Assembly (NCBI RefSeq): GCF_009883055.1
Contig: NZ_WWVR01000021.1
Span: forward strand, 1 to 55,897
Source: Blautia sp. BIOML-A1
Lineage (GTDB): Bacteria; Bacillota; Clostridia; Lachnospirales; Lachnospiraceae
Reading direction: 5' to 3'
DNA: 55,897 nt
The position numbers and the translations under genes are program-made. The stretch's first letter is position 1; each line of letters opens with the position of its first letter. This document shows positions 3,641-33,899 of the stretch, piece by piece. The notes beneath the pieces were generated by a model. It was not told where the DNA came from and searched no databases. It saw nothing but the letters and a program-made list of their open reading frames with translations.

Positions 3641-3697
3641 GTAACTATTCAGAAGGTGGCATTTTTCCTTATAACTGTGAAGATACTGAACAGTTAT
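3641..3697. mobile_element. MITE-like palindromic element, 57 bp (copy 1)
   Basis: GTAACTATTCAGAAGG at the left end and CTGAACAGTTAT at the right end enclose an inner TAACTGTGAAGATAC arm. Same family as the elements at 9268, 13287, 14258, 17569, 23263 and 33758. It lies 41 bp beyond the stop of the M14-like gene. No clear target duplication remains. Confidence 0.75.
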
Positions 3698-3738
3698 CTG
3701 TATTTTACAAAAAAATCGGAATATGTGCAAGCGTTATA

Positions 3739-4635
3739 TCAAAGAGAAAACAGGTACTCAAGCGGAAGCGTATGGATCTTCCGGTACTCGTTCTGTCTCT
3801 GTTCCTCCTTATCCTCGCTTTCTTCTTTCAGTGTTTCAATCCGAAACGATGGTTTATGACAGATTTCTGCATAAAACTGCTCGGGTGAACCGCTTCCCGG
3901 ACGACCGGCAACAGAAAAATCTCCCTGTCCCGCCGGCAGATTGTCCATATAGTAGCTGCTGCATTTCTGCAGATGTCTGGCCAGACGATAGCTTTTCTGG
4001 TTCGCGGCAAAGGATCGGGACTGTTTAAAGTACAGAATGCGATTCCTGAAATGATTGAATGACAGAAGTCCGCTGCTTGGATATTCCTGAAAGATACGGA
4101 TCAGCGCCTTTGTTTCATTTTCACTTGCAGGCTGCTGCATGACCTGTCTGCGCTGATAGTACTGCGTAGGAAAATTTTTGCGTAAATCTATCCCTCGTCC
4201 ATTTCCCGTATATTCTTTTGCCGGAATTTCCTGCATCCGAAGCATCTGCCGATAGATCGGATTGCGGATCGCCTGAAAATCCCTTTCATAAATCTCATAC
4301 CCATCCGGATTCAGAAGAGGGATGAAACACAGTCGCCACTTATCTAAAGCCTCCCTGACATCGTAGATTTCTTCTATCTTCCATCCGCTTTCCCAGGCTT
4401 TGGTATATTCCTGGATCATCCGAATCAGAAACTTCGGTGTCTGCCTGTCCGGGCCGGTAAGCCCCGAAAGACAAAAAATACAGCTATTTCCTTTTCCAAG
4501 TTCTATCATGGGGATCATTCTTTCATCGTGACTCTTTCCGATGATCCGAAACTGTGCGATCTGGCGGTAACGCTGAGACATCTCCCACATTTCATAATAA
4601 AGATCTTCATATGTACAGGAACGTGTATCTGGCAT
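3739..4635 (-). CDS. Peptidase M14 (zinc carboxypeptidase)-like protein with lost zinc ligands
   Basis: The fold markers of M14 carboxypeptidases are in order: LLNPDGYEIY (108-116), GRGIDLRKNFP (147-157), SENETKAL (171-178) and the segment holding the catalytic glutamate, FRIETL (Glu267). But the zinc-binding HxxE is replaced by TGPD (residues 60-63 in SGLTGPDRQTP), and the third ligand region reads SFNHFRNRILYF, with Asn194 where His is expected unless the alignment slips by one to His195. It therefore looks like a non-catalytic relative or a strongly diverged enzyme. No signal peptide is seen, suggesting a cytoplasmic role. GGAGGG at proper distance supports the ATG at 4635. Family assignment good, function unknown. 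Confidence 0.75.
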   Translation of the reverse strand: MPDTRSCTYEDLYYEMWEMSQRYRQIAQFRIIGKSHDERMIPMIELGKGNSCIFCLSGLTGPDRQTPKFLIRMIQEYTKAWESGWKIEEIYDVREALDKWRLCFIPLLNPDGYEIYERDFQAIRNPIYRQMLRMQEIPAKEYTGNGRGIDLRKNFPTQYYQRRQVMQQPASENETKALIRIFQEYPSSGLLSFNHFRNRILYFKQSRSFAANQKSYRLARHLQKCSSYYMDNLPAGQGDFSVAGRPGSGSPEQFYAEICHKPSFRIETLKEESEDKEEQRQNEYRKIHTLPLEYLFSL

Positions 4636-4709
4636 AATCTTTTCCCTCCATTTCTTGTAAAAAAACTTTATCCAGAATCATGTATCTGCCCTGTATTAAT
4701 ATATGAAAA

Positions 4710-4734
4710 GAGGCAGGTCAAAAGAACCTGCCTC
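4710..4734. terminator. Terminator of the surface protein gene
   Basis: Perfect 9-bp stem GAGGCAGGT/ACCTGCCTC with a 7-nt loop, A-run on the left and on the right, so a T-run follows in either direction. Placed 27 bp after the surface protein stop on the minus strand. Confidence 0.85.
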
Positions 4735-4761
4735 CAAAAAAATATTCAGTTTTGTACATTA

Positions 4762-6990
4762 TCAGATATCTTTTTTACGTTTACGGATCAGGATATAGCC
4801 TCCTGCCAGCAGTGAGAGTGCTGCCAGTGCCACCATGGCTCCGATCGGAGATTCATCGAGAGTAGAAACTGCTGACTTGGAACTGGAGCCGCCATCCTTC
4901 TCTGATGCTGCTTCCGTTGCAGTCAGCTCGGCATCTGTCTTATCACCACTGCCGCTTCCGTCTCCGCCTCCACCAGAACCATTATCGCCTGCAGCTCCGG
5001 TCGGAGTTACTGTAAGATCCTCCGGAGAAAGCTTCTGTGAACTGAACTGTGTCTTCACAGACTCAATCACATCTGTATCCTGCCATTCTGATCCATTGTA
5101 AATCTGTTTCTTGAAGAATACATAGATGTTGTAAGTCTTGGCATCTGCAATACCCTTCGGGGAACCGATCCTGAATGTGGTATTCTTCTCACCTGATTTC
5201 GTAGGATTCTCTGAAAGACTCCAGTACATCGGAATCCATCTCTCATCCCCGGAAACATATGGCTTCTCGTCATTCTGTCCTGCACCTGTTACGCTGAATT
5301 CATAGAAAGTGCCAGGAGTGAATTTCAGTGGATTCTCCAGACCTGTGATCGTACTCTTAGTAACCGCATAGGTACGTGCCGGACGAGTAGATGTAGTTGC
5401 CGCACCCGGACGTTTCTTCTTAAAGGATGCGGTATTTAATTTAAAAATACTCATCTTGGCCTTGCCAGAATCAGGTTTCGCACAGACAACCAGCCAGGTA
5501 TCTGCCTCCGGAACATTCTCTGCCTTAACGGTAAAACTTGTGTTTGCTTTCGCTACGTTTGTGGCACGACTTGCATCATACATGTTCTGGATCACCTTTG
5601 TATCAGTATCTGCATCTACAAAGAAGTAATACCATTTGCAGTGCTGTGTGGTAGACATCTGCAGGGAAACTGTTGTATGATCTGTCCATTTCAGTGAACC
5701 ACTCTTATACTTCAGGAAAGAAGGTGTCTTGGTTGGGGTCACTGTCGGCTTCGTTGTCGGTTTTGCTGTCGTAGTTGGCTTAACAGACGGACTTACCGAC
5801 GGGCTCACGGATGGACTCACGGACGGCTCTGTTGCTTTCTTTTTAAGTGTTGCTTTGTTTGTCTCTGTATCTGGATTCAATATATATTCCTCTGTATCAT
5901 AACTGAATTGTTCTGCCACAGTTTTAAAATCTACAACTGTCACACCCTCTGCCACGGCAAGTACCTCTGTACCCTCTGCCGCACCGGCATGGGTGAAAGA
6001 AATATCAGAACCGGTAAGTTCATCTGTGATAACAAACTCCGCTGTCCCATCCAGATATACGTTTGCCTGTGCATCACCGATCTTATTATCCTTCACTGCG
6101 ACAGTTCCCTGAACGCAAACAGCTGAATCACTGTAGACAGCACCTTTGGCACCGGTGTTTCCGGTGATCGTGCCGCCTGCCAGAACAATCTGTCCGCCTG
6201 TACAGTTGACAGCCGCACCGTCTGCACTGCTGATGTTTCCGCTGAGCACTACATTGGAAAATAATCCAAAGCTTCCACTGTCACTCACGTTGACGATAGA
6301 GCCTTCTGCTGTCACCGCTGCATCCGTAAATGCACCGCTGACTGTCAGGCTGCCTCCGTCCTTTGTTTCAAATGACAGGGAACTGTTCTCACCGGATACC
6401 TTAAACATATCTCCGGTAAAGGAATCTGTCTCTCGGGCAATGGAGATATCTCCAACTGCACAGATGGAGATTTTCCTGCCGGATACGTTAACTGTAGATG
6501 ATAAGGCAATCGGCTTGGAAACTTCGATCACTGTAGCAGATGACTCCGCTGTTGCGGCCTTTGCTGCATCTATCGCCTCCTGAAGGCTGTTATAATATTT
6601 CGGTGTGACATTTCCATCTGCATCAACTTCATTAATCGCAATTCCGGTGTCGGTCTGCTCCTCAGCCGGTGCTTCAGTCGGTTCTTTGTTCTCCTCCGTT
6701 GTCTCAGCCGGGGTTTCTGTTTCCTGCTTCTCTTCCTGTGCAGGCTCGGCCGGTGCTTCTGCAGGATTGGACTCAGCTGGTGCTTCCGCCGGCTGCTCTG
6801 CAGGTGCCTCAGTCGGTTCTTTATTCTCCTCTGCTGGCTGTTCTTCTGCCGCAGATTCCTCTGTATTCTCACCAGCTCCAAGATCTCCTGCTTCTTCTGC
6901 CGCAGTATCTGCCGCCATTGCAGTAACCGGTACTCCTCCGGCTGCAAGTGCTCCGGCCAGGATCATTGCATATAACTGTTTACGTCTCAA
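4762..6990 (-). CDS. Large secreted surface protein with beta-helix-like region and C-terminal membrane anchor
   Basis: A signal peptide (RRKQLYAMILAGALAAGG, cleavage likely after TAMA) leads into a Glu/Pro/Ala-rich region of near-repeats (EEQPAEENKEPTEAPAEQP and variants). Then come about 230 residues of short beta-strand repeats like right-handed beta-helix proteins (DGGSLTVSGAF, GGTITGNTGAKGAVYS), a Pro/Ser/Thr linker (SPSVSPSVSPSVKPTT), two probably globular modules, a glycine linker and a final membrane helix followed by RKRKKDI. No LPxTG motif is visible before the helix, where STLDESPIG stands. A GGGAGG site suits a TTG start at 6990; an in-frame ATG at 7005 has no good ribosome site. 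Function unknown; adhesion or glycan binding is only a guess. Confidence 0.8.
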   Translation of the reverse strand: MRRKQLYAMILAGALAAGGVPVTAMAADTAAEEAGDLGAGENTEESAAEEQPAEENKEPTEAPAEQPAEAPAESNPAEAPAEPAQEEKQETETPAETTEENKEPTEAPAEEQTDTGIAINEVDADGNVTPKYYNSLQEAIDAAKAATAESSATVIEVSKPIALSSTVNVSGRKISICAVGDISIARETDSFTGDMFKVSGENSSLSFETKDGGSLTVSGAFTDAAVTAEGSIVNVSDSGSFGLFSNVVLSGNISSADGAAVNCTGGQIVLAGGTITGNTGAKGAVYSDSAVCVQGTVAVKDNKIGDAQANVYLDGTAEFVITDELTGSDISFTHAGAAEGTEVLAVAEGVTVVDFKTVAEQFSYDTEEYILNPDTETNKATLKKKATEPSVSPSVSPSVSPSVKPTTTAKPTTKPTVTPTKTPSFLKYKSGSLKWTDHTTVSLQMSTTQHCKWYYFFVDADTDTKVIQNMYDASRATNVAKANTSFTVKAENVPEADTWLVVCAKPDSGKAKMSIFKLNTASFKKKRPGAATTSTRPARTYAVTKSTITGLENPLKFTPGTFYEFSVTGAGQNDEKPYVSGDERWIPMYWSLSENPTKSGEKNTTFRIGSPKGIADAKTYNIYVFFKKQIYNGSEWQDTDVIESVKTQFSSQKLSPEDLTVTPTGAAGDNGSGGGGDGSGSGDKTDAELTATEAASEKDGGSSSKSAVSTLDESPIGAMVALAALSLLAGGYILIRKRKKDI

Positions 6991-7122
6991 TTTAAATCCT
7001 CCCATGTGTCTTCATTTCACAATCACAAATATGTAAACTTCGTATTGTCGATTGTAAATAAATATGCAGCATCGTCAAAACGCTTCTTTTCAGTTAAAGT
7101 TTGTAATAATAAACTGTATTTC

Positions 7123-7151
7123 ATTATACACACGCCTCTGTGAAATGTCAA
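7123..7151 (-). promoter_or_regulatory. Consensus sigma-A promoter of the surface protein gene
   Basis: Minus strand TTGACA (7151-7146), 17 bp, TATAAT (7128-7123): a perfect consensus, leaving a leader of about 125 nt before the start codon. Confidence 0.85.
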
Positions 7152-7198
7152 ATCAACGATGCCTGTTTCCGGTCATTATCGTTCGACCTTTTTTGCCT

Positions 7199-8449
7199 TT
7201 ACTGTCGAATCTGGCCGTTTCCATAGATAATGTATTTGGTTGTTGTCAAAGCAAGGAGACCCATAGGACCTCTCGCATGAAGTTTCTGTGTACTGATCCC
7301 GATCTCAGCTCCATAACCAAATTCAAATCCGTCTGTGAATCTGGTAGAAGCGTTTACATATACTGCTGCCGCATCTACCTCATCCAGGAATTTCTGTGCA
7401 TTCGTGTAATTCTCTGTGATGATCGCCTCAGAATGGCCTGTGTTATATTGATTAATATGTGCGATTGCTTCCTCTACATTATGCACAACCTTGATCGAAA
7501 GAATGTAATCCAGATATTCCGTTCCCCAGTCTTCCTCTGTCGCAGAAACCGCACCCGGCATCAGTTCTTTTGATTCCTTATCGGCACGCATTTCGACATG
7601 CTTCTCTTTCAGCTTCTCTGCAAGAACCGGAAGAAGTTTTTCTTTCACATTTTCATGGACCAGAAGCGATTCACAGGCATTGCAGACACCGACTCTCTGC
7701 GTCTTGGCATTCATGATGATATTGACCGCCATCGTAAGATCTGCACTCTCATCTACATAAATGTGGCAGTTTCCGGTTCCGGTCTCGATCACCGGGATGG
7801 TGCTCTGGTTTACCACTGCCTTGATAAGTCCTCTTCCACCTCTCGGGATCAGAACATCGACATATTCATTCATTTTCATGAATTCTGCTGCCGTTTCACG
7901 GGAGGTATCCTCAATAAGCTGGATGGCATCTTCTGTCACTCCATGAGAACGTAAGGTTTCTCTGATGCAGTCCACGATTGCCTTATTTGAATGAATTGCG
8001 TCACTGCCGCCTTTGAGAATTACAACATTTCCTGTCTTGAAACAAAGACCAAACGCATCTGCCGTAACATTCGGACGTGCCTCATAGATGATTCCCACAA
8101 CACCAAGCGGAACTCTTTTCTGCCCGATCAGAAGACCGTTCGGGCGTTTTTTCATTCCTGTTACCTCACCGATCGGATCCTCCAGGGAAACGAGCTGGCG
8201 AAGTCCCTCTGCCATTCCCTCGATTCTTTCCTTTGTGAGGAGAAGACGATCCACCAGACCTTCCGGCATCTGATTCTCTCGTCCGTGTGCGACATCGACT
8301 GCATTTGCTTTAAGCAGCTGTTCGGTACACTCTACAAGATGCTCTGCCACAGCCTCAAGGACCTCATTCTTCTTGTTTGTTGTTATGTTTCGAAGCTCTG
8401 TCTCAGCTTTTTTGGCGTTTTTTCCAAGCTGCAGTAACCTTTCATTCAT
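7199..8449 (-). CDS. proA: Gamma-glutamyl phosphate reductase
   Basis: Second step of proline synthesis: NADPH-dependent reduction of gamma-glutamyl phosphate to glutamate semialdehyde. The 416-residue protein has the aldehyde dehydrogenase-like pattern of Pro[32 protein letters not shown], and the active-site cysteine in [20 protein letters not shown] is 8 bp before the ATG at 8449 and too close to the in-frame TTG six bases earlier. It is the last gene of the operon that holds proB, DUF896 and fthC; no strong terminator is seen behind it. Confidence 0.96.
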
Positions 8450-8478
8450 GGCCAAAACCTCCTTCGGAAATATGTCTT

Positions 8479-9036
8479 TTATTTTGTAAGTGAATAGATT
8501 GTATTTTCGGTAACGATAAACTCCGGAGAAATATCCGTCGGTTCCGTCGGAACAGAGGGCAGAATCTGGAATTCAAAAGCCACAGCCACCCTCTTTATCA
8601 TCGGATGCTTCTCAAGAAAGCGGTCATAAAAGCCACCTCCATAGCCTACCCTGTGGTTCTGCGGATCAAATGCCACTCCCGGCATGATCATCATGGCATC
8701 CTCCCACTGAATGATCTCACCGCGTGCAGGTTCCGGGATCCCGAAGTATCCCTTCTCAAGCTGTGCAAAATCCGTCAGCTTATAAAATACCATATCCTGT
8801 CCGACAACCTTCGGAACCGCTACTTCCTTTCCCTGCTTCCATGCTTCTTCGATCATAAAACCAGTCATAACCTCATGATTGTAATCCGCATAGGCAAGGA
8901 TCCTCTGTGCATTTCGAAATTCAGGGAGTGCGGCCATTCTGGCTGCGATCTCACGGCTCCAGGTTTCCACCTGTTCATCGGTACATTCTTTTCTGAGCTT
9001 AAAAATCTGCTTTCTAATGAGTTTTTTTGTTTCCAT
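8479..9036 (-). CDS. 5-formyltetrahydrofolate cyclo-ligase
   Basis: ATP-dependent conversion of 5-formyl-THF to 5,10-methenyl-THF. The 185-residue protein has the N-terminal RKQIFKLR segment, the central EVAVPKV and the family signature [26 protein letters not shown]. The ATG at 9036 is chosen over an in-frame GTG at 9045 because AGGTG is 6 bp upstream of the ATG. It overlaps the DUF896 gene by 23 bp, indicating coupled translation between DUF896 and proA. Confidence 0.94.
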
Positions 9037-9241
9037 ATTTTTCACCTAAGTTTGTGACAGATCCATCGGATTCCTTAATGCTGATGTTATTGAGCTGTGC
9101 CTTCAGATTACCTTTGACCGCTGCAATATATTCCTTACGCAGTTCTGCCTGCTCAGCCTTTTCTTCTTCTGTAAGTCCTACACTCTTGGCCTTGTGTGCC
9201 AGAGTATTGATGCGGTCTATTTTTGTATTATCCATTCCCAT
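9014..9241 (-). CDS. DUF896 (YnzC-like) small protein
   Basis: A 75-residue protein with the DUF896 pattern: [44 protein letters not shown], two helices expected to form a helical hairpin, followed by a polar tail. YnzC-type proteins of Bacilli and Clostridia have no settled biochemical role. AAGGAG sits 8 bp before the ATG at 9241. The gene overlaps fthC downstream and is separated from proB upstream by the MITE at 9268-9304. Confidence 0.9.
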
Positions 9242-9267
9242 TGTGGTATCTCCTTTTTAAGTAATCT

Positions 9268-9304
9268 GTAACTGTTCATTACCCTCGCAGTTCTGAATAG
9301 TTAC
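9268..9304. mobile_element. MITE-like element, 37 bp, with 7/8 target duplication (copy 2)
   Basis: GTAACTGTTCATTACC at the left and TGAATAGTTAC at the right. Flanks AGTAATCT (9260-9267) and AGTAATTT (9305-9312) match in 7 of 8 bases, as expected for a target-site duplication. Its right end supplies the proB stop codon. Confidence 0.85.
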
Positions 9305-10155
9305 AGTAATTTTTCGATGTAGTCGATCAGGAAAAATTCTTCCTTCTTATCACTGACAAACAGAGTTCCATAGTCACGGCCCTCCACGATCTTGTGGATG
9401 ATGTGGAAATCCGCGCCATTTGCAATGACCATGTCCGCGCCTGCTGCCGTCGCGATCTCGGCAGCTGTAAGCTTCGTTGCCATTCCCCCTGTTCCGACTT
9501 TACTCTTCGGTCCTTTGCCCATGCTCAGAAGTTTCTCATCCAGCTTCTCTACCACATGAATAAATTCTGCATCCGGATTGCTGTTCGGATCATCTGTAAA
9601 CAGTCCGTCAATATCGGAGAGCAGAATCAGAAGGTCCGCTCCGATCAGGCCTGTGATCACGGCTGACAGGGTATCATTGTCGCCAAAGGACTCCATCATC
9701 TCCAGCTCATAGCTGGAAACAGAGTCGTTCTCATTTACGATCGGAATCGCTCCGACGCTCAAAAGCTCTTCGAAGGTATTTCTGGCATTCCTGCGGTTCA
9801 GATTGTTGACCATGGTACTCTTGGTCATCAGTATCTGTGCTGCCACCTGATTGTATTCAGCAAACAGCTTCTGGTAGATCATCATAAGCTTTGCCTGTCC
9901 AACGGCCGAACATGCCTGTTTCTGTTTAAGTTCTGCCGGCTTTCCATGAAATCCAAGTGCGGAAGCTCCTACTGCCACGGCTCCTGAAGTTACCAGTACT
10001 ACATCCTTGCCCTGATTGTGAAGATCACTTAATTCACGAACCAGCACTTCAAGCTTACGCAGATCCAGTTTGTTTGTCTCTTTGTGGATCAGAGAAGAGG
10101 AACCTACCTTCACCACAATTCGTTTTTTATCCTTTAACATCTCACGGTAATTCAT
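9301..10155 (-). CDS. proB: Glutamate 5-kinase (short form without PUA domain)
   Basis: First step of proline synthesis: ATP-dependent phosphorylation of glutamate. The 284-residue protein is an amino-acid-kinase fold with VVKVGSSSL, VTSGAVAVGASALG, IVNENDSVS, LLSDIDGLFTDDP and the GTGGMATKLTAA segment. It lacks the C-terminal PUA domain found in the longer enzyme of many bacteria, as is common in Clostridia. The ATG at 10155 has GGAGAG upstream. The TAA stop lies in the terminal GTAA of the neighbouring MITE: codons TTA CT/G TAA cross the insertion point, so the C-terminus was set by the insertion. Confidence 0.95.
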   Translation of the reverse strand: MNYREMLKDKKRIVVKVGSSSLIHKETNKLDLRKLEVLVRELSDLHNQGKDVVLVTSGAVAVGASALGFHGKPAELKQKQACSAVGQAKLMMIYQKLFAEYNQVAAQILMTKSTMVNNLNRRNARNTFEELLSVGAIPIVNENDSVSSYELEMMESFGDNDTLSAVITGLIGADLLILLSDIDGLFTDDPNSNPDAEFIHVVEKLDEKLLSMGKGPKSKVGTGGMATKLTAAEIATAAGADMVIANGADFHIIHKIVEGRDYGTLFVSDKKEEFFLIDYIEKLL

Positions 10156-10218
10156 TGTTTCGTATCTCTCCAAGTATAATTTATTGTCGTATCCTTCTGC
10201 TGCCCTGAGAAAGACAGA

Positions 10219-10713
10219 TTATCTGGTAATCCCGAGATCATCCAGGGCTTTGGCCTGTTTCTGCTCCATTACGGCAGCCTCCTCGGGTGTCATATGATCG
10301 TATCCGAGAAGATGGAGCATGCTGTGTGCAAACAGGAAACTGAATTCACGTTCGATGCTGTGTCCATATTCCTGTGCCTGAGAATAAACTCTGTCTACAG
10401 AGATCATCACATCTCCAAGGAGCAGTTCATCGGTATCCAGATCAAAATATTCATCCTGATCATCGATCACCGAATAATCTGCCGGCTTCTCAAACGGGAT
10501 CATCGGGAAAGAGAGCACATCTGTCGGCGAATCGATCAGGCGGAATTCTGCATTTACTTTGCGAATCTCTTCATTATCTGTAATAACCAGGTTCACGCTG
10601 ATCTCATACGGACATTTCTCCAGTTCCAGAATGTGGGAAGCTATTTTTTCTGCAAGTTTCTCATAGGGTATTTCCAGTTTTCGTTCTGTTTCATACTCAA
10701 TCTGAATGGTCAT
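10219..10713 (-). CDS. ybeY: Endoribonuclease YbeY (rRNA maturation factor)
   Basis: Zinc-dependent endoribonuclease involved in 16S rRNA 3'-end maturation and ribosome quality control. The 164-residue protein carries the metal motif HSMLHLLGYDH, the pattern HxxxHxxxxxH, near the C-terminus, and PTDVLSFPM upstream, both typical of the family. The ATG overlaps the stop of phoH by 4 bp (ATGA), the common phoH-ybeY arrangement. Confidence 0.96.
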   Translation of the reverse strand: MTIQIEYETERKLEIPYEKLAEKIASHILELEKCPYEISVNLVITDNEEIRKVNAEFRLIDSPTDVLSFPMIPFEKPADYSVIDDQDEYFDLDTDELLLGDVMISVDRVYSQAQEYGHSIEREFSFLFAHSMLHLLGYDHMTPEEAAVMEQKQAKALDDLGITR

Positions 10714-12942: not shown

Positions 12943-12950
12943 AAACACCT

Positions 12951-13226: not shown

Positions 13227-13230
13227 AAAA

Positions 13231-13265: not shown

Positions 13266-13286
13266 TTCTGTTTAGAATCTTAACTT

Positions 13287-13313
13287 GTAACTGTGAGGAT
13301 ACTGAACAGTTAT
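13287..13313. mobile_element. Minimal MITE, 27 bp, with perfect 8-bp target duplication (copy 3)
   Basis: GTAACTGTGAGG through CTGAACAGTTAT. Flanks CTTAACTT (13279-13286) and CTTAACTT (13314-13321) are identical. Confidence 0.85.
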
Positions 13314-13329
13314 CTTAACTTTATGCAGG

Positions 13330-13878: not shown

Positions 13879-13894
13879 CGGACATCTCCTCCTG

Positions 13895-14221: not shown

Positions 14222-14257
14222 AATTGTTTCCTCCTCTTGTAGATAGAATTTTGATCC

Positions 14258-14284
14258 GTAACTATGATAGTACTGAACAATTAC
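14258..14284. mobile_element. Minimal MITE-like element, 27 bp (copy 4)
   Basis: GTAACTATGATAG through CTGAACAATTAC, same length as copy 3. It lies 3 bp from the rlmH stop codon. Flanks do not match, so either old or altered by recombination. Confidence 0.65.
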
Positions 14285-14287
14285 AGA

Positions 14288-17568: not shown

Positions 17569-17637
17569 GTAACTGTTCATTACCTTCACAGTTACGAGTC
17601 AAAATGTCTCGCGGGATACTACCTTATGAATAGTTAC
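17569..17637. mobile_element. MITE-like element, 69 bp, with 7/8 target duplication (copy 5)
   Basis: GTAACTGTTCATTACC at the left and TATGAATAGTTAC at the right. Its interior (CACAGTTACGAGTCAAAATG and TCTCGCGGGATACTACC) matches the ends of the 142-bp copy at 33758, so it is an internally deleted version. Flanks CAGTCAAA (17561-17568) and CAATCAAA (17638-17645) match in 7 of 8. Confidence 0.88.
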
Positions 17638-22784: not shown

Positions 22785-22794
22785 GGATAACTGC

Positions 22795-23142
22795 TCAAAA
22801 AGTAAGCTCAAGACTGATTTCCAGTGCATGATTCACCTTATCCAGCATTGCCTGGTCCAGGTGACAGACCTTATCCTTCAGCCTTCGTTTGTCGATCGTC
22901 CGCAGTTGCTCCAGAAGGATCACAGAATCCCTCTCGATCCCATAGGCAGACGCATCGATCTCAATATGTGTCGGCAGTTTCGCTTTATTCATCTTTGATG
23001 TAATTGCTGCGCAGATCACAGTCGGGCTGTGCCGGTTGCCCACATCATTCTGGATGATCAGCACCGGACGGATACCGCCCTGCTCGCTTCCGACCACAGG
23101 CCGCAGATCTGCATAAAAGATATCTCCTCTTTTAATTACCAC
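22795..23142 (-). CDS. MazF/EndoA-type mRNA interferase
   Basis: A 115-residue PemK/MazF-fold toxin: [30 protein letters not shown], then [20 protein letters not shown] and [13 protein letters not shown], very close to EndoA of Bacillus, which cleaves mRNA at UACAU. A GTG at 23142 has GGAG ten bases upstream; an in-frame GTG at 23151 is too close to it. In Bacillus the antitoxin gene lies between alr and this gene. Here only about 150 bp separate alr and mazF and hold no antitoxin-sized frame, so the toxin appears unpaired at this locus. Confidence 0.92.
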
Positions 23143-23262
23143 ACAATTCACACTCCGATTCTTCTGTTACTGTCCCTTATGGAACATCCCATTCTTTTTC
23201 TCTGGAATTAGTATTTCCATTTTTTTCTCGTGTATACATGTGTGGTGTTTCCATCTGATTTC

Positions 23263-23286
23263 GTAACTGCTCAGCCTCACAGTTAC
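23263..23286. mobile_element. MITE relic, 24 bp (copy 6)
   Basis: GTAACTGCTCAGCCTCACAGTTAC, followed by GAATC as in the longer copies. No target duplication left. It lies between alr and mazF. Confidence 0.55.
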
Positions 23287-23298
23287 GAATCATCTTCC

Positions 23299-24465: not shown

Positions 24466-24504
24466 AATCCTTTATCTCCTCACTGCATATCGCAAATATT
24501 CTTA

Positions 24505-26106: not shown

Positions 26107-26131
26107 TTCGTCTCCTCTCCAAAAACAACAG

Positions 26132-26181
26132 AAAGGCTGTTACGCAGCCTCCTTAATGCAAGGAGCCGGGTAACAGCCTTT
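26132..26181 (-). terminator. Terminator of rex
   Basis: A 12-bp outer stem AAAGGCTGTTAC/GTAACAGCCTTT encloses a second stem (GCTCCTT/AAGGAG). Followed on the minus strand by T-rich TTTCTGTTGTTTTT. It separates rex from nnr. Confidence 0.85.
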
Positions 26182-26194
26182 CACTGTCCTCTTT

Positions 26195-26851
26195 TTATGA
26201 ATGCTGCTCTTCTACATGTTCCTGTCGATATTGACTGAGATTGTAGGATAAAGTCATCAGACTCTCCGAAAGATGAACATTCTCTACAATTACGTCATCC
26301 GGAGTATCCAGATCAATATGAGCAAAATTCCAGATCGCCTTGATACCATTCTCGATCAGGATATCCGCCATATCCTTCGCCTTATTCTTCGGAAGTGTAA
26401 GGATTGCGATCTCAATATTATTCTCTCTTAAGAAAAATGGAAGATTGCTGATCATCTGGATCTCAATTCCGCGAACAGCAATACCTTCAAGTACCGGGTT
26501 CACATCAAAGATTCCTAGTAACTTAAAACCACGTTTTTCAAAGTCAACATAATTGGCAAGTGCCTGTCCAAGATTACCGGCACCAACGATGATCATCGGG
26601 TGTACCTCATCCAGTCCCAGGATCTTACCGATCTCTGTATAAAGATATTTTACATTATAACCGTATCCCTGCTGCCCAAACCCTCCGAAATTATTCAAAT
26701 CCTGACGGATCTGAGATGCTGTGACACGCATTTTCTTACTAAGATCATTGGAAGATATACGCTCAACATTGTCTTCCAGTAATTCGCCAAGATAGCGATA
26801 ATACCGGGGCAGTCTCTTAATTACAGCTTTTGATATCTGTTTTGCCTCCAC
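26195..26851 (-). CDS. rex: Redox-sensing transcriptional repressor Rex
   Basis: Senses the NADH/NAD+ ratio and represses fermentation and energy genes. The 218-residue protein has the N-terminal winged helix (ISKAVIKRLPRYYRYLGELL, ASQIRQDLNNFGGFGQQGYGYNV) and a Rossmann domain with PMIIVGAGNLGQALANY. The GTG start at 26851 has GGGAGG upstream. Its promoter's -10 lies within GTTATAATTAAC, an inverted repeat vaguely like a Rex site but with spacing 2 bp too short; autoregulation is only a possibility. Confidence 0.96.
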   Translation of the reverse strand: MEAKQISKAVIKRLPRYYRYLGELLEDNVERISSNDLSKKMRVTASQIRQDLNNFGGFGQQGYGYNVKYLYTEIGKILGLDEVHPMIIVGAGNLGQALANYVDFEKRGFKLLGIFDVNPVLEGIAVRGIEIQMISNLPFFLRENNIEIAILTLPKNKAKDMADILIENGIKAIWNFAHIDLDTPDDVIVENVHLSESLMTLSYNLSQYRQEHVEEQHS

Positions 26852-26881
26852 CGTTGTCCCTCCCTTAATACTTTCCTGTTA

Positions 26882-26910
26882 ATTATAACGAAATGACATT
26901 TTATTGTCAA
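26882..26910 (-). promoter_or_regulatory. Consensus promoter of rex
   Basis: Minus strand TTGACA (26910-26905), 17 bp, TATAAT (26887-26882), a perfect sigma-A consensus. Confidence 0.85.
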
Positions 26911-26961
26911 TCTATGTTGGTAATTCTGTGCAATTTTTGCTGTTTTTTCGTTGGTTTTTCC

Positions 26962-26990
26962 TTTACAAAGATAATTTTTCCCCTTATAAT
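26962..26990 (+). promoter_or_regulatory. Promoter of the ABC-F gene
   Basis: TTTACA (26962-26967), 17 bp, TATAAT (26985-26990), 32 bp before the start codon. Confidence 0.8.
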
Positions 26991-27021
26991 CATAGCGTAT
27001 ATTGATTTTGGAGGAATATTT

Positions 27022-28944
27022 ATGATCTTATCATGTCAGAGCATCTATAAGTCTTTTGGCGAAAAAGTCATTCTGAACGATGCCTCTTTTCATATAGAAG
27101 AGCGTGAGAAAGCCGCTCTTATCGGCAACAACGGAGCAGGAAAGACAACCCTTCTCCGTATTATAATGGAAGAAATTTCCGCAGATTCCGGTCAGGTCGT
27201 TCTGATGAAAGACAAGAAGATCGGTTATCTCGCACAGTATCAGGAGATCAAGGGACACCGCACCATCTACGAGGAGCTGCTCTCAACCAAGCAGTACATC
27301 ATTGATATGGAAGACCGCATGCGTGCAGCAGAAATACAGATGAAGCATGCCTCCGGCGAGGAGCTCGAGCGTCTGATGAACACCTATACCCGGCTGACCC
27401 ATGAATTCGAGCTCGAAAACGGCTACGCTTACAGGAGTGAACTGATGGGTGTCCTCAAGGGTCTTGGTTTCACCGAAGAAGATTTCAACAAGCAGATTGA
27501 AACGCTCTCCGGTGGACAGAAGACACGCGTTGCACTTGGTAAGCTTCTGATCTCTAAGCCTGACATTCTTCTTCTCGATGAGCCGACCAACCATCTGGAT
27601 ATGGAGAGTATTGCCTGGCTGGAAACCTATCTCCTGAACTATCCAGGTGCTGTATTTATTGTTTCCCATGACCGTTATTTCCTGGATAAGGTTGTAACCA
27701 AGGTCATTGAGATCGATGCCGGACAGGTCCGTATGTACAGTGGAAACTACTCTGCCTACGCAGAAAAGAAGGCTCAGCTGCGTGATGCACAGTACAAGGC
27801 TTATCTGAACCAGCAGAGAGAGATCAAGCACCAGGAGGCAGTCATTGTCAAGCTGAAATCCTTCAACCGTGAAAAATCCATCCGCCGCGCCGAGAGCCGT
27901 GAAAAAATGCTCGGCAAGATCCAGCGAATCGAGAAGCCGACAGAGGTACAGAGCCAGATGCGCCTCTCTCTCGAACCAAGAGTCATCAGTGGAAATGACG
28001 TTCTTACCGTGGAGGAGCTTTCCAAGAGTTTCCCGGAGCAGACTCTTTTTACCGATATCTCCTTCCAGATCAAGCGAGGCGAACGCGTTGCCCTGATCGG
28101 AAACAACGGTACCGGCAAGACAACCATGCTCAAGATCCTCAACGATCTTATTCCCGCTGATTCCGGAACCTTCACCCTAGGTTCAAAGGTTCAGATCGGC
28201 TATTACGATCAGGAGCATCACGTACTGCATCCGGAAAAAACCATCTTTGAAGAAATTTCCGACACCTATCCGACCCTTACCGAGACAGAGATCCGAAACA
28301 TGCTCGCCGCCTTTCTTTTTACCAACGATGATGTATTTAAGCTGATCTCTTCCCTCTCCGGTGGTGAGCGCGGTCGTGTCTCTCTCGCAAAGCTGATGCT
28401 CTCCGAGGCCAACTTCCTGATCCTCGATGAGCCGACCAACCATCTGGATATCGCATCCAAGGAAATCCTGGAGGAGGCACTGAACAGCTACACCGGTACG
28501 GTTCTCTATGTTTCTCATGACCGATACTTTATCAACCAGACCGCGACCAGGATCCTGGAGCTTACCAATCAGGCCGTTGTCAACTACATCGGTGATTACG
28601 ATTATTACCTTGAGAAAAAAGAAGAACTCACTGAAAAATATGCTCCGATACAGCAGATAGAAGAAACCACTTCCGATGAAGCAGCACCTGCGGCATCCGA
28701 AGGAAAGCTTACCTGGCAGCAGCAGAAAGAAGAACAGGCACGTAAGCGTAAGCAGGAGGCGGAACTTAAGAAGACAGAACAGAGGATTGAAGAACTCGAA
28801 ACCAGAGACAAAGAAATTGATGAAACACTGGTTCTTCCGGATGTCTGTACCAACGTCGGACGCTGTGCAGAACTCAGCCGCGAAAAAGACAAAATTCAGG
28901 CAGAGCTTGAAGAACTTTACGAAAAATGGGAAACCCTGGCGTAA
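27022..28944 (+). CDS. ABC-F family ATP-binding protein
   Basis: Cytosolic translation-associated ATPase with two ABC modules and no membrane domain. Module 1: GNNGAGKTTLLR, LSGGQKTRVALGK, ILLLDEPTNHLDMES; module 2: GNNGTGKTTMLK, LSGGERGRVSLAK, FLILDEPTNHLDIAS. Between them is the helical P-site linker rich in Lys/Arg/Glu, and the C-terminus is a charged coiled coil as in Uup/YdiF-type members. The ATG at 27022 follows TTGGAGGA; an upstream in-frame hydrophobic extension is leader DNA. Which ABC-F subgroup (housekeeping or antibiotic protection) cannot be told. Confidence 0.95.
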   Translation: MILSCQSIYKSFGEKVILNDASFHIEEREKAALIGNNGAGKTTLLRIIMEEISADSGQVVLMKDKKIGYLAQYQEIKGHRTIYEELLSTKQYIIDMEDRMRAAEIQMKHASGEELERLMNTYTRLTHEFELENGYAYRSELMGVLKGLGFTEEDFNKQIETLSGGQKTRVALGKLLISKPDILLLDEPTNHLDMESIAWLETYLLNYPGAVFIVSHDRYFLDKVVTKVIEIDAGQVRMYSGNYSAYAEKKAQLRDAQYKAYLNQQREIKHQEAVIVKLKSFNREKSIRRAESREKMLGKIQRIEKPTEVQSQMRLSLEPRVISGNDVLTVEELSKSFPEQTLFTDISFQIKRGERVALIGNNGTGKTTMLKILNDLIPADSGTFTLGSKVQIGYYDQEHHVLHPEKTIFEEISDTYPTLTETEIRNMLAAFLFTNDDVFKLISSLSGGERGRVSLAKLMLSEANFLILDEPTNHLDIASKEILEEALNSYTGTVLYVSHDRYFINQTATRILELTNQAVVNYIGDYDYYLEKKEELTEKYAPIQQIEETTSDEAAPAASEGKLTWQQQKEEQARKRKQEAELKKTEQRIEELETRDKEIDETLVLPDVCTNVGRCAELSREKDKIQAELEELYEKWETLA

Positions 28945-28962
28945 TGCCGTGGGTTTCCCATT
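28925..28962 (+). terminator. Terminator overlapping the ABC-F stop codon
   Basis: AATGGGAAACCC (28925-28936) pairs with GGGTTTCCCATT (28951-28962), followed by TCTTTATA. The stop codon sits in the loop, so the last codons form the stem. Confidence 0.8.
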
Positions 28963-28995
28963 TCTTTATATCCGTATTGCTCTGGTTAATTTTTA

Positions 28996-30207
28996 CTATT
29001 TAAGAAGAGTATCCAACGTTTCTCTGATCGCAAGAATAAATCCCTCGCTGTTCAATACGGTCGGGTTTTCGATAGTAGTGATCAGTGCCAGATCCTTGGT
29101 CATCTTACCAGACTCAATAGTAGTAAGAGTTGCTTTCTCCAGCTTATCCGCGAACTGTGCCAGTTCCGCATTTCCGTCAAGTTCTCCACGCTTACGAAGA
29201 GCTCCTGTCCATGCAAAAATAGTTGCCACAGAGTTTGTGGAGGTTTCACCGCCCTCCAGATGACGATAATAATGTCTCTGTACCGTTCCGTGAGCAGCCT
29301 CATACTCATAATATCCATTCGGAGAAACCAAAACAGATGTCATCATTGCAAGGGAACCAAATGCAGAAGATACCATATCACTCATAACATCTCCGTCATA
29401 ATTCTTGCATGCCCAGATAAATCCACCCTCTGCTTTCATGACACGAGCAACGATATCATCGATCAGACTGTAGAAGTAAGTAAGACCGGCTTCCTCGAAT
29501 TTCTCCTTGAATTCCTCATCAAATATAGTCTGGAAGACCTGTTTGAATTTGGCATCATAAGTCTTAGAAATCGTATCCTTGGCACCAAACCATACATCCT
29601 GCTTTGTATCCAGTGCATAGTTGAAGCAGCTTCTTGCAAAGCTCTCGATGGATGCCTCCATGTTGTGCATACCCATGGCAACTCCCGGAGCCTTGAAATC
29701 CTGTACCAGGGCACGCTTCTCTTCTCCGTCCTCTGAAGTATAAACAAGCTCAACCTTGCCCGGTTTGTCAATATACATCTCTGTATTCTTATAGATATCA
29801 CCATATGCATGACGTGCAAGAGTGATCGGTTTCTTCCAGTTTCGTACACATGGTTCAATTCCCTTCACTACGATCGGAGCACGGAATACCGTTCCGTCCA
29901 GGATCGCACGGATCGTTCCGTTCGGGCTCTTGTACATCTTCTTGAGATCATACTCGTCCATACGCGCATGGTTCGGGGTGATCGTCGCACATTTAACTGC
30001 AACACCATATTTCTTGGTTGCCTCTGCTGCATCGATCGTTACCTGATCATCTGTGTCATTACGGTGTGCAAGACCAAGATCATAGTATTCTGTATTCAGG
30101 TCAATATACGGAAGCAGTAATTCATCCTTGATCATCTTCCAGAGAATTCTGGTCATCTCATCTCCGTCCATTTCTACTAACGGCGTTGTCATCTGAATTT
30201 TTGTCAT
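28996..30207 (-). CDS. icd: NADP-dependent isocitrate dehydrogenase
   Basis: Oxidative decarboxylation of isocitrate to 2-oxoglutarate. At 403 residues with [41 protein letters not shown] and [29 protein letters not shown] it is of the type II, eukaryote-like homodimeric class rather than the E. coli type. GAGGAG precedes the ATG at 30207. Monocistronic with its own promoter. It supplies 2-oxoglutarate for glutamate, the precursor used by proB and proA. Confidence 0.96.
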
Positions 30208-30296
30208 AAGTTTCTCCTCTCTGTGTAGCATTTATTTTACTGTTCACAGTAAGTTACTATACGCTGCTCCTGTTGCTTTGAACAGCGATTTGTTAC

Positions 30297-30325
30297 ATTG
30301 TAGCGAAAAAAACTCTGTCCGTCAA
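30297..30325 (-). promoter_or_regulatory. Promoter of icd
   Basis: Minus strand TTGACG (30325-30320), 17 bp, TACAAT (30302-30297). Confidence 0.75.
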
Positions 30326-30371
30326 TACTTTCGGGCTTTACCATAGTAAATCTTACAAATTTTCCAGAAAA

Positions 30372-31208
30372 TTACAGCGAAAGGAACTTTTTACAGTTAA
30401 ATTTCCCCCATCCCTGCTGATTCCTGGAAAGGCCCAGATCATCCGCGCTGTCACGCAGCATCATCTTGATATCCACATTTGTAAGCATCGGATCCTTTTC
30501 CAGGGCAAGTGCCGCCGCTCCGGATATCACCGGTGTAGACATCGAAGTGCCGCTTTTCATTGCATAGGTATTCCCCACTCCCGGTGCACATGCCATGATC
30601 CGCCGCCCCGGTGCAACCAGATCCGGTTTGCAGACACACTCAAACGTCGGTCCTCTTCCAGAGATTGCCGTCTTTCCCAGAAGCATATCACTAGAGCCCA
30701 CCGTGATCACCTTCTTACTGCATCCCGGCGCGGTAATGCTGCCCGGCTCCGGACCACGATTTCCCGCCGCCGCAACCACCACCAGTCCCTGGTCCCAGAG
30801 AGCCTCCACTCCACGGACCAGAACATCCTTGTCACTTCTGGTCTTATATGTTGTTCCGACCGAAATATTTACGATCCGGATCTTGTATTCCTCCCGGTGA
30901 TTCTCGATCCACCGAAACGCCGCCAGAATATCCTCCTTGTTTCCATTTCCGAAACGGTCCAGCACCTTAAGGCTTATCAGAAAACATCCCGGTGCCATTC
31001 CCTTATACTTTCCCATGGAAGCCTCTCCGCTTCCGCCAAGAATCCCCGCAACACACGTTCCATGTCCGTTGTCATCATAGGGAAAGGTTCTATATGAAAT
31101 AAAATCTGCAAAAGCATAAATACGATCACCAAAATCCATATGAGGATAAATTCCCGTATCCAGAAGTACCACACCGATGCCTTTTCCGGTATAAACTGAC
31201 TGCTTCAT
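30372..31208 (-). CDS. Subtilisin-like (S8) serine protease, probably intracellular
   Basis: The catalytic triad is complete: Asp in GVVLLDTGIYPHMDF, His in DDNGHGTCVAGILGG, Ser in SGTSMSTPVISGAAAL; oxyanion Asn in AAAGNRGPEPG. There is no signal peptide and no propeptide: the 278-residue protein starts MKQSVYTGKG just before the catalytic core, as in intracellular subtilases such as AprX/ISP. AGGAG precedes the ATG at 31208. Monocistronic. Confidence 0.94.
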   Translation of the reverse strand: MKQSVYTGKGIGVVLLDTGIYPHMDFGDRIYAFADFISYRTFPYDDNGHGTCVAGILGGSGEASMGKYKGMAPGCFLISLKVLDRFGNGNKEDILAAFRWIENHREEYKIRIVNISVGTTYKTRSDKDVLVRGVEALWDQGLVVVAAAGNRGPEPGSITAPGCSKKVITVGSSDMLLGKTAISGRGPTFECVCKPDLVAPGRRIMACAPGVGNTYAMKSGTSMSTPVISGAAALALEKDPMLTNVDIKMMLRDSADDLGLSRNQQGWGKFNCKKFLSL

Positions 31209-31322
31209 GAATATACTCCTGATAAATGGACTTATTTTAATGTATTCAAAAAAGTACAATGATGCATAATTTTTGAAAAAATGCCAATACTGAAAGCCAT
31301 AGAAACCAGAAGGAGGCTTTTT

Positions 31323-31478
31323 ATGTTGATCATTTTTCTGATACTCTTTTTTCTGCTGCAGATACTTGTACTCTTCTGCTGTCTTGCCGCCGGAAACGAT
31401 CCGGCTTCACAGGAATTATCCGACCGGGAGCAGATGGAATATATCCAGAACTGGATGAAAAAGCATTCCGGATCATGA
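31323..31478 (+). CDS. Small single-pass membrane protein
   Basis: 51 residues: MLIIFLILFFLLQILVLFCCLAA forms one membrane helix at the N-terminus, followed by a polar tail (DPASQELSDREQMEYIQNWMKKH). AGAAGGAGG with a 5-bp T-run before the ATG gives a very strong ribosome site, which makes this a real gene although no family is recognised. It is divergent from the subtilase gene and may share the intergenic control region with it. Role unknown. Confidence 0.6.
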   Translation: MLIIFLILFFLLQILVLFCCLAAGNDPASQELSDREQMEYIQNWMKKHSGS

Positions 31479-31572
31479 AACCGCCATATGAAATTTCAAC
31501 CGGTTCATCTGCTTTCTCTTGTTCTCATTGGTATCTTCTCCTTTTTTACAGAATATTATAAAACACCAAAAA

Positions 31573-31613
31573 GCAGAGGGTACAGTCATTCATAGCAATG
31601 ATTGTCCCTCTGC
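31573..31613 (-). terminator. Terminator of glmS
   Basis: GCAGAGGG/CCCTCTGC with inner ACAATCATT/AATGACTGT pairing; TTTTT follows on the minus strand. Confidence 0.85.
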
Positions 31614-31636
31614 CTGATTTCATTCATTATTTTTTT

Positions 31637-31648
31637 CTGAATAGTTAC
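31637..31648. repeat. Solo end of the MITE family
   Basis: CTGAATAGTTAC equals the right terminal repeat of copies 5 and 7. No partner end is seen; it lies 2 bp from the glmS stop codon. Confidence 0.4.
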
Positions 31649-31650
31649 TA

Positions 31651-33489
31651 TTATTCTACAGTAACGCTTTTTGCGAGGTTTCTCGGTTTATCTACATCGA
31701 GGCCCTTAGAAACACTTACATAATATCCCAGAAGCTGAAGCGGGATCACTGCAAGTGAGGTAGCAAAGTGAGGATCTGTCTTTGGAATATAAACTGTGAA
31801 GTCTGCAGTATCTTCAATATTGTAATTTCCAAATGTGGTCAGACCCATCAGATAGGCACCGCGGCTCTTACACTCTACCATATTGCTGACGGTTTTTTCG
31901 TAAAGAGCCGGCTGGGTGAGAACACCGATCACCAGCGTTCCGTCCTCGATCAGAGAAATGGTTCCGTGCTTCAGCTCACCTGCCGCATATGCCTCCGAAT
32001 GGATGTAGCTGATCTCCTTCATCTTGAGACTGCCTTCCATACTGATCGCATAATCGATTCCACGTCCTACAAAGAAAACATCATGTGCATTTGCCTGCTT
32101 GGAGGCAAACCACTGGATTCTTTCTTTATCATCAATAATTCTCTGCACTTTCTCCGGAAGAGTTTTGAGATCTTCAATATATCCTGTATACTGCTCCTCT
32201 GTGATCTGCTCCCTGGTCTTGGCAAACTGGATTGCAAGTAGATAAGCTGCGATCAGCTGTGTACTGTATGCCTTGGTCGTAGCAACGGAAATCTCCGGTC
32301 CTGCAAGTGTGTAGAAGATATTATCCGCCTCACGGGCAATAGAAGAACCAACTACATTAACGATTGCAAGCGTACGGATTCCATGCTTCTTACAAAGACG
32401 CAGTGCGGCAAGACTGTCTGCGGTCTCTCCGGACTGACTGATCACAACCGCCAGTGCATGAGGATCCAGAATCGGATTACGATAACGGAATTCAGATGCA
32501 AGCTCTACACGCACCGGAATCCTTGCCATATCCTCGATCACATACTGTGCTGCCATACCTACATGATAGGCGGATCCACAGGCAATGATATAAATCTGGG
32601 AAATATCCCTGATTTCTTCCTCTGTAAGTCCAACCTCTGTGAGATCGATTCTGTCATCCTTCAGGGCAGAATTCAGAGTATCCTGGATTGCCTTCGGCTG
32701 CTCATGGATCTCTTTCATCATGAAATGCTCAAAACCGGCCTTCTCTGCCGCCTCTGCGTCCCAGTCGACTACCTTCAGTTCTTTCTCGATCTCTTCACCG
32801 TCCAGATTATAGAATGTAATCTCGCCCTTATGCACACGGGCCATCTCCATATTCCCTATATAATAAACATTTCTTGTATATTTCAGGATTGCCGGAACAT
32901 CTGATGCAATATAGGATTCACCATTCTCAACACCCAGGATCATCGGGCTGTCTTTTCTTGCCACATAAATCTCTTCCGGATAATCCTTGAACATGATTGC
33001 CATTGCATAAGAACCACGGATACGAACCATGGAATGATTGATCGCATCTACCGGAGTTCCTTCATATTTCTTATAATAATAATCGATCAGCTTTACAGCC
33101 ACCTCTGTGTCTGTCTCGGAATAGAAAGTATAACCCTTACGAAGTAGCTTATCCTTCAGTTCCTGATAATTCTCAATGATTCCGTTGTGTACAGCTACAA
33201 CATTTCCGTCATCACTGATATGTGGATGTGCATTATTCTCCGAAGGCTCTCCATGAGTCGCCCAGCGAGTATGACCAATACCACAGGTGCCTGGAACAGA
33301 TTCTCCGTTGTTTGTCTTCTCAGCAAGCCCTTTCAGACGACCTTTTGCCTTGATAACTCTGGTCTCCTTCCCCCCATCGCGCACTGCGATTCCGGCAGAG
33401 TCATAGCCACGATATTCAAGCTTGGAAAGTCCATCCAGCAAGATCGGTGCTGCCTGATGATCACCTGTAAATCCTACGATTCCACACAT
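31651..33489 (-). CDS. glmS: Glucosamine-fructose-6-phosphate aminotransferase (isomerizing)
   Basis: Makes glucosamine-6-phosphate from fructose-6-phosphate and glutamine for cell-wall and capsule amino sugars. The 612-residue protein starts with the nucleophile Cys in MCGIVGFTG, has CGIGHTRWATHGEP and the glutaminase domain, then two SIS domains (SQSGETADSLAAL, EISYIHSEAYAAGELKHG) and ends DKPRNLAKSVTVE. GAGGAG precedes the ATG. Only about 50 nt lie between the promoter and the start, so a glmS ribozyme is not present. A diverged 5' copy of glmS exists at 45810-46676. Confidence 0.97.
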   Translation of the reverse strand: MCGIVGFTGDHQAAPILLDGLSKLEYRGYDSAGIAVRDGGKETRVIKAKGRLKGLAEKTNNGESVPGTCGIGHTRWATHGEPSENNAHPHISDDGNVVAVHNGIIENYQELKDKLLRKGYTFYSETDTEVAVKLIDYYYKKYEGTPVDAINHSMVRIRGSYAMAIMFKDYPEEIYVARKDSPMILGVENGESYIASDVPAILKYTRNVYYIGNMEMARVHKGEITFYNLDGEEIEKELKVVDWDAEAAEKAGFEHFMMKEIHEQPKAIQDTLNSALKDDRIDLTEVGLTEEEIRDISQIYIIACGSAYHVGMAAQYVIEDMARIPVRVELASEFRYRNPILDPHALAVVISQSGETADSLAALRLCKKHGIRTLAIVNVVGSSIAREADNIFYTLAGPEISVATTKAYSTQLIAAYLLAIQFAKTREQITEEQYTGYIEDLKTLPEKVQRIIDDKERIQWFASKQANAHDVFFVGRGIDYAISMEGSLKMKEISYIHSEAYAAGELKHGTISLIEDGTLVIGVLTQPALYEKTVSNMVECKSRGAYLMGLTTFGNYNIEDTADFTVYIPKTDPHFATSLAVIPLQLLGYYVSVSKGLDVDKPRNLAKSVTVE

Positions 33490-33545
33490 AAATATATCTC
33501 CTCTTATTCCTTCAATGCATATTAAAAGTAAAAAAATTCTAGCTT

Positions 33546-33574
33546 ATAATAGCACAATCCGATGATGATTTCAA
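33546..33574 (-). promoter_or_regulatory. Promoter of glmS
   Basis: Minus strand TTGAAA (33574-33569), 17 bp, TATTAT (33551-33546). Confidence 0.75.
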
Positions 33575-33673
33575 TGTCTTTATATTATTGTCCTTTTTTA
33601 TTGCATTTTCACATATTTTTTTTGCAGAGATATTTTATTTTCATTCTACAGTTTTATGTTATTTTAAACGACA

Positions 33674-33716
33674 TTATTTATTCTATTACAAAAAATATTT
33701 TTTATTTATTCTATTA
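33674..33716 (+). repeat. 15-bp direct repeats upstream of the hth-ugd promoter
   Basis: TTATTTATTCTATTA occurs at 33674-33688 and again at 33702-33716, 28 bp apart start to start, ending 3 bp before the -35 box. This spacing suits binding of a dimeric regulator on one DNA face; the HTH domain of the downstream protein is a candidate. The rest of 33575-33670 is plain A+T-rich DNA. Confidence 0.55.
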
Positions 33717-33719
33717 TAA

Positions 33720-33748
33720 TTGACATTTCAATTACTATCTGCTATGCT
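33720..33748 (+). promoter_or_regulatory. Distal promoter of hth-ugd
   Basis: TTGACA (33720-33725), 17 bp, TATGCT (33743-33748) with TGC before the -10. Confidence 0.6.
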
Positions 33749-33757
33749 CACCTTATC

Positions 33758-33899
33758 GTAATTGTTCAGTACCCTCACAGTTACGAGTCAAAATGCATTC
33801 CAAATCACCTTCGGTGATGGCATTTTGCCTTGTATGTCTCGGGATTTTGGCAAAAATATGCCAAAACGCCTCGCGGGATACTACCTTCTGAATAGTTAC
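33758..33899. mobile_element. MITE, 142 bp, longest copy, with perfect 8-bp target duplication (copy 7)
   Basis: Ends GTAATTGTTCAG and CTGAATAGTTAC; identical flanks ACCTTATC at 33750-33757 and 33900-33907. The interior has two stem-loops: CAAAATGC/GCATTTTG enclosing ATCACC/GGTGAT, and TTTTGGCA/TGCCAAAA. It carries no gene. It lies between two promoters of hth-ugd, so transcripts from the distal promoter would contain it. Confidence 0.92.

Follow-up and report, generated by a model that had tools for sequence, protein, structure and literature searches.

Seven short palindromic repeats lie between positions 3641 and 33899 of a 55,897-nt stretch of DNA from Blautia sp. BIOML-A1 (contig NZ_WWVR01000021.1; from here: the window). 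They raise the question of what kind of element they are, which enzymes inserted them and whether the shortest of them moved at their present length. The first-pass annotation had proposed a family of miniature inverted-repeat transposable elements (MITEs) with IS66-type ends and 8-bp target duplications, and this proposal was supported. We consider it probable that the repeats form a MITE family which Blautia shares with other Lachnospiraceae, that IS66-type transposases mobilise it in trans, and that most short copies arose by deletion in place.

Palindromic MITEs of other bacteria, among them ERIC, NEMIS/Correia and RUP, are short, intergenic and non-coding and occur in many copies. Their ends, duplication lengths and host groups differ from those of the Blautia family, in which, unlike in these elements, hairpin modules are exchanged while the ends and flanking motifs stay. 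The 100-nt non-coding MITEPsy1 of Pseudomonas syringae transposes in the cell, and its terminal repeats closely match those of ISPsy2, a full insertion sequence (PMC3189936); it is unlike the Blautia family in its 4-nt duplication, its 18-nt terminal repeats and its partner, given there as 'IS5?'. Titles and abstract openings of the literature on MITEs of Blautia and Lachnospiraceae, insertion sequences and IS66, in a collection that most subscription papers fall outside, contained no description of the family. We regard it as new as a family and ordinary in kind. It explains small intergenic repeats in the genomes of gut Blautia, provides markers of recent transposition and comes with probable partner transposases.

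Seven copies in the window

The positions, the lengths (57, 37, 27, 27, 69, 24 and 142 bp) and the end sequences first given for the seven repeats are correct. The only full-length element, of 142 bp, lies at 33758–33899 (+), folds with a z-score of −6.5 and is flanked by a perfect (8/8) target duplication ACCTTATC at 33750–33757 and 33900–33907. A second perfect duplication, CTTAACTT at 13279–13286 and 13314–13321, encloses the 27-bp copy at 13287–13313 (−). The flanks match at 7/8 positions around the 37-bp derivative at 9268–9304 (+) and around the 69-bp derivative at 17569–17637 (+), which retains the 27-bp hairpin on the left as well as the right end. These four results agree with what had been reported. 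For the other three copies, namely the 57-bp derivative upstream of miaB at 3641–3697 (−), the diverged 27-bp derivative at 14258–14284 (−) and the 24-bp remnant at 23263–23286 (+), flank identity is 3/8, 0/8 and 2/8, respectively, so that a duplication is absent at three of seven sites. The reading of the shorter copies as internal deletions of the long form was upheld; the 27-bp and 24-bp forms, however short, are not a left end joined to a right end and consist of the left-end hairpin alone. Both 27-bp copies are in reverse orientation. With up to two mismatches, the end motif GTAACTRTTCAG occurs at 17 sites in the window, whereas 100 shuffles averaged 6.69 and never exceeded 13. One isolated 12-bp instance, at 31637–31648 (−) directly 3′ of the glmS stop codon, may be a remnant or due to chance.

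Compared with the genes that have family matches, all window copies are intergenic or located at a stop codon. Four of the seven lie 3–16 bp 3′ of a stop codon, and another contributes a stop codon itself: the in-frame TAA (9301–9303) of a proB-like frame (9301–10173) comes from the GTAAC end of the 37-bp copy. The frame 2114–3730, which overlaps the copy at 3641–3697, encodes MiaB; its TTG start is probably placed too early, because the match to the MiaB family begins only at residue 102–103. Small plus-strand frames with no assigned function overlap the copies at 3641 and 23263.

Several other features of the window were recorded in passing. A PemK/MazF-like gene (22795–23151, −) adjoins the 24-bp remnant. 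A UDP-glucose 6-dehydrogenase gene (33968–35446, +) carries an N-terminal HTH_3 domain, and a second UDP-glucose dehydrogenase gene at 49074–50312 has no HTH match. Two identical 27-bp terminator-like hairpins, CCCCCGTTGA...TCAACGGGGGTTT, are located at 35491–35517 and 39685–39711. Over 209 bp, positions 46003–46211 and 32846–33054 are 78% identical, a similarity between a smaller gene with a glutamine amidotransferase domain (45810–46676) and glmS.

Mobility, distribution and anatomy of the family

The window and related loci were scanned for end pairs spaced by 18–260 or 2,000–2,400 bp, a procedure that leaves copies lacking a duplication uncounted. Flanks identical at 7/8 or 8/8 positions were found for 97 pairs (60 perfect, 37 with one mismatch); from shifted flanks, 0.7 pairs at 7/8 and none at 8/8 would be expected. 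These pairs represent 92 distinct elements, including 49 of 141–145 bp, 12 of 27 bp, four of 46 bp and three of 109 bp. One of the 27-bp instances (17569–17595) is the hairpin within the 69-bp window copy and was dropped, leaving 11. A few others, of 34, 67, 131 and 220 bp, could reflect nested or accidental pairing of ends and are included in the 92. At 24 further loci from a family-wide search, 11 duplications of 8/8 and five of 7/8 were observed (16/24), and none in 72 control comparisons; five of the 29 loci found by that search (L308, L309, L310, L323 and L334) were excluded from this count as their match was off-centre. Identical copies were also found at different sites, in sets of four, two and two. 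Because of the 8-bp duplications and the identical copies at unrelated loci, we conclude that the elements are mobile.

Comparison with relatives yielded the empty sites that had been suggested as a check. The 13287 copy is absent in all four aligned relatives, and at 14258 no element is visible in the same four, the spacer alignment being loose at both sites. Among 14 aligned orthologues of another locus, two (G032 and G024) share a 27-bp copy that the remaining 12 lack; in both genomes its GTAAC end provides the stop codon of the gene, as seen for the proB-like frame. At the corresponding place just 3′ of the stop codon, a third genome (G022, locus L368) was seen by eye to have a different 26-bp palindrome, GTTACTGT...ACAGTAAC, which may be a short element of the other end type or an unrelated hairpin. 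As is typical of a MITE, the 142-bp element is short, lacks a transposase gene and has two 12-bp terminal inverted repeats that pair with each other in the fold; copies of the family are flanked by target duplications and occupy sites where relatives have no element. Long open frames contain only five of 84 element sites, whereas they contain 692 of 1,680 positions drawn at random from these loci.

Among named genomes, Blautia sp. MSJ-19 (G001) and Blautia sp. Marseille-P3087 (G003) are closest to the window, with identities of 73% and 71%, respectively, for the FtsK-like protein and of 74–77% for the DNA around 13–15 kb. The 142-bp copy matches 24 places in the former and 26 in the latter at up to 97% identity, some of these places being parts of one copy. 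Matches were obtained in 32 of 64 genomes of the genus of Marseille-P3087, with about 13 candidates scored per genome. In the 4.69-Mb genome G067, the motif GTWACTRTTCA occurs 142 + 134 times (276), against 6 + 8 (14) for the reversed-pattern control. When 29 copies were used to build a covariance model, it matched 31 of 250 sampled Lachnospiraceae genomes, including Marseille-P3087, under strict filters that lose weak matches. Hence, this is an abundant, real and widespread MITE family in Blautia and other Lachnospiraceae. Three patterns found zero, zero and one stretches in viral contigs, and the 142-bp copy had no match on plasmids; carriage on phages or plasmids was rejected on these results. 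Separately, G001 (contig C13, locus L358), G035 (C158) and G050 (C62) share a stretch that contains a 27-bp copy and shows no difference in any aligned part (100% identity), over 1,051 bp in two of the genomes and in two parts of 649 and 232 bp in the third; this identity across three genomes suggests recent horizontal transfer.

From left to right, a full copy consists of a 27-bp left hairpin end (the outer repeat and, behind it, an inverted copy of itself), hairpin B, the segment TRTGTCTCGGG, hairpin D, the segment CRCCTCGCGGGATA and the right end. The two segments on either side of hairpin D hardly vary. The hairpins are modular: in some copies, hairpin B or D is replaced by an unrelated one within an unchanged frame, and elsewhere in the family there are genomes whose copies keep the ends and have another D module. 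As single strands, five copies fold far better than their shuffles (z −5.0 to −8.5). For hairpin B, 94.4% of cells are paired across 22 sequences, against 33–51% in slid controls, and double-sided changes occur in 42 cells, against 1–7 in the controls. These changes affect seven of 17 pairs, a number reached by 34 of 500 shuffles, and the observed number of pair types was reached by 297 of 500. In an RNAalifold consensus of whole copies, five of 27 pairs show double-sided changes and the covariation term is small. On one reading, the covariation reflects selection on structure; on another, template-guided correction of imperfect palindromes. Rfam 15 gave no gathering-level match in the window and none at E ≤1 in four related loci, and membership in a known structured RNA family was rejected.

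Insertion sequences with matching ends

No autonomous partner was seen in the window, as had been noted: with one 557-aa partner transposase as the tblastn query, the best E value was 2.6. The IS66 transposase profile PF03050 has no match in MSJ-19 or Marseille-P3087 either; that no such working partner is seen in these two genomes at present counts against the proposed mobilisation. Other species of the genus did contain the kind of element for which a search had been proposed, with the ends in agreement and duplications of 8 bp. PF03050 matched 31 of its 64 genomes, and ten distinct insertion sequences combine a PF03050 match with GTWAC-type ends and perfect 8-bp duplications. Such end pairs occurred in 11 of 45 loci of a first scan and four of 15 loci of a second, where the 11 include one element with GTAAGCG ends, left out of the ten, and several instances of the same element fetched twice.

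IS66-family elements have ends that begin with GTAA. The partner ends begin with GTAA in L292, L296 and L299 and with GTTA in L168, L170–172, L179, L181 and L298. In G067 and G022, a 557-aa protein is encoded within an element of 2,237–2,242 bp that has GTTACTGTTCAA ends and perfect 8-bp duplications. Both ends plus a perfect duplication were present in one of three partner-type copies fetched from G067 and in three of five from G022; L173 has both ends and no duplication, and L167, L169 and L174 have one end only by the motif used. Perfect duplications also flank the elements with the ends GTTACTGTTCAC (L179, in G016), GTTACTATTCAC (L298), GTAACAGTTCAG (L292 and L299) and GTTACTTTTCAC (L181), as well as the 1,696-bp element L296 in G035, which has the ends GTAACTATTCAG. 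The last 14 bp of the 142-bp window copy are exactly both ends of L296, the best match to the window ends, yet its transposase gene is broken, which counts against a working partner. In a G067-type copy (L121), the terminal 14 bp equal one end of L179 exactly and the other at 13 of 14 positions. The partners have one long frame, preceded in L170 by frames of 54 and 82 aa.

All six transposases examined score 50.3–92.3 bits against PF03050 (cut-off 23.1) and 136.8–156.8 bits against the NCBIfam model NF033517 (cut-off 180), one of the six being a broken 328-aa piece. Since they lie above the former cut-off and below the latter, they are, judged by these profile scores, divergent members of IS66. 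An element of the ISBst12 group of IS66, ISDge4 of Deinococcus geothermalis, has the ends GTAACTGCTCAGCA/GTGACTACTCAGCA and a single transposase gene and generates an 8-bp direct repeat upon insertion (PMC12898284). The Blautia partners resemble this group in their ends and 8-bp duplication and perhaps also in having a single gene. The window element differs in being 142 bp long and geneless, and only its terminal 11–14 bp match the Blautia partners. A derivation of the MITE interior by internal deletion of a partner was rejected, as two MITE copies compared to seven elements shared no stretch longer than 11 bp beyond the ends.

The shared ends and duplication length suggest that the MITE is probably mobilised in trans by IS66-type transposases. 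Full copies (141–145 bp, ends GTWACTRTTCA[GC]) would have inserted with 8-bp target duplications, most likely through the transposases of putatively single-gene, ISBst12-like IS66-family elements with the same ends, and the interior would be a modular set of hairpins not drawn from the partner elements examined. An IS66-type element of 2,546 bp that is bounded by GTAAGCG ends and flanked by a perfect duplication of 8 bp was noticed in G019 (L145), a genome with five hits of equal score.

Origin of the short copies and alternative explanations

From the perfect duplication around a 27-bp copy it had been concluded that extremely short derivatives still moved. This does not follow, as a 27-bp form with its duplication is also the expected deletion product of a full copy. 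The 27-bp form is the left-end hairpin. In a full copy, AGTTAC (ACAGTAAC in copies of the GTTAC type) occurs as a direct repeat, once in the inner arm of this hairpin and once in the right end. A deletion from one of these 6–8 bp repeats to the other leaves exactly 27 bp and keeps the duplication; because the same product arises from direct repeats inherent in the full copy, the 27-bp form need not have moved. Other internal repeats make similar predictions. CGGGAT repeats predict 108–109 bp, and three copies of 109 bp were observed; CAAAA repeats predict 69–70 bp, and of two 69-bp copies one has a fitting junction. Products of about 121 bp, predicted from ATTTTG/GGGATTTTG repeats, and of 30 and 66 bp were absent among the 92 elements, the missing 121-bp product being a point against the model. 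We suggest that most short copies (57, 37, 27, 69 and 24 bp) would be the result of deletions that took place once the element had inserted and that joined short direct repeats flanking the hairpins, possibly by replication slippage over the folded strand, with the original duplication left in place.

The junctions of 27 derivatives bear on this proposal. Five of six 27-bp copies (13287, L224, L236, L247 and L280) share 6–9 bp, and the diverged 14258 copy shares 1 bp; the five are part of the 11 27-bp copies that have a duplication. Random deletions share 0.65 bp on average and 6 bp or more in 0.27% of cases. The other 21 derivatives, split automatically, share 0–3 bp, which counts against repeat-mediated deletion. 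Perfect duplications are about equally frequent around 27-bp copies (six of 11) and around full copies (34 of 49; Fisher p 0.48), and derivatives of 18 and 22 bp retain duplications of 8/8 and 7/8, the 18-bp one being weaker evidence in that its flanks themselves contain GTAAC. As a further point against in-place deletion, no case of a full and a 27-bp copy at the same site was found at the G001/G035/G050 or G032/G024 loci: the identical stretches of the former offer no length contrast, the latter have the same 27-bp copy without an informative length difference, and at a second locus G024 and G032 are not close (~70% identity).

Alternatively, the 27-bp left hairpin might itself be mobile, with its outer end and inverted inner arm serving as the two ends. 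The inner arm does approximate an inverted copy of the end (12 of 12 bases in L321), 27-bp copies have perfect 8-bp duplications in several genomes, including two located 2.7 kb apart in MSJ-19, and they are absent at the same places in relatives. Against these points stand the equivalent deletion product described above and the 18- and 22-bp copies, which are too short for two 12-bp ends and still retain duplications. In addition, the end-pair scan of G067 contains three copies of 27 bp against 24 of 141–145 bp, and joining both ends of 27 bp of DNA is physically hard. We consider this alternative improbable; the very short copies are most likely later in-place deletions, for which movement of the 27-bp form is possible and unneeded. 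Resemblance of AT-rich intergenic DNA by chance or low complexity, to which one might attribute the three window copies without a duplication, is refuted by matches of up to 97% identity over 142 bp elsewhere and by the excess of both duplications and end motifs, and deserves practically no credence.

The host could also retain the repeats downstream of its genes primarily for a function as structured RNA or DNA, similar to REP or ERIC, with only incidental mobility. The double-sided changes in hairpin B, the near-invariant segments around hairpin D, the avoidance of open frames and the position of most window copies just past or at stop codons would fit this idea. However, duplications and identical copies at unrelated loci demonstrate mobility, the copies tested are not co-located in other species, Rfam has no match, the standard pair types of hairpin B do not exceed shuffles, and template-guided correction of imperfect palindromes could yield covariation without selection. 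As a primary explanation it appears unlikely. A comparably tentative extension of the MITE reading is that of a family-wide mobile scaffold, in which selection keeps exchangeable hairpins paired for a function as RNA or single-stranded DNA, e.g. in shaping transcript 3′ ends past stop codons, and the 27-bp double-ended hairpin is perhaps the smallest unit movable by an IS66-type transposase.

The modular, covarying hairpins together with the graded series of probable in-place deletions merit the attention of specialists, as this natural series, from ~18 to 145 bp, offers a test of the in-place shrinkage of palindromic elements and of the minimal IS66-type substrate. Among the 27-bp copies, inspection by eye pointed to a candidate distinct lineage marked by a T at position 15.
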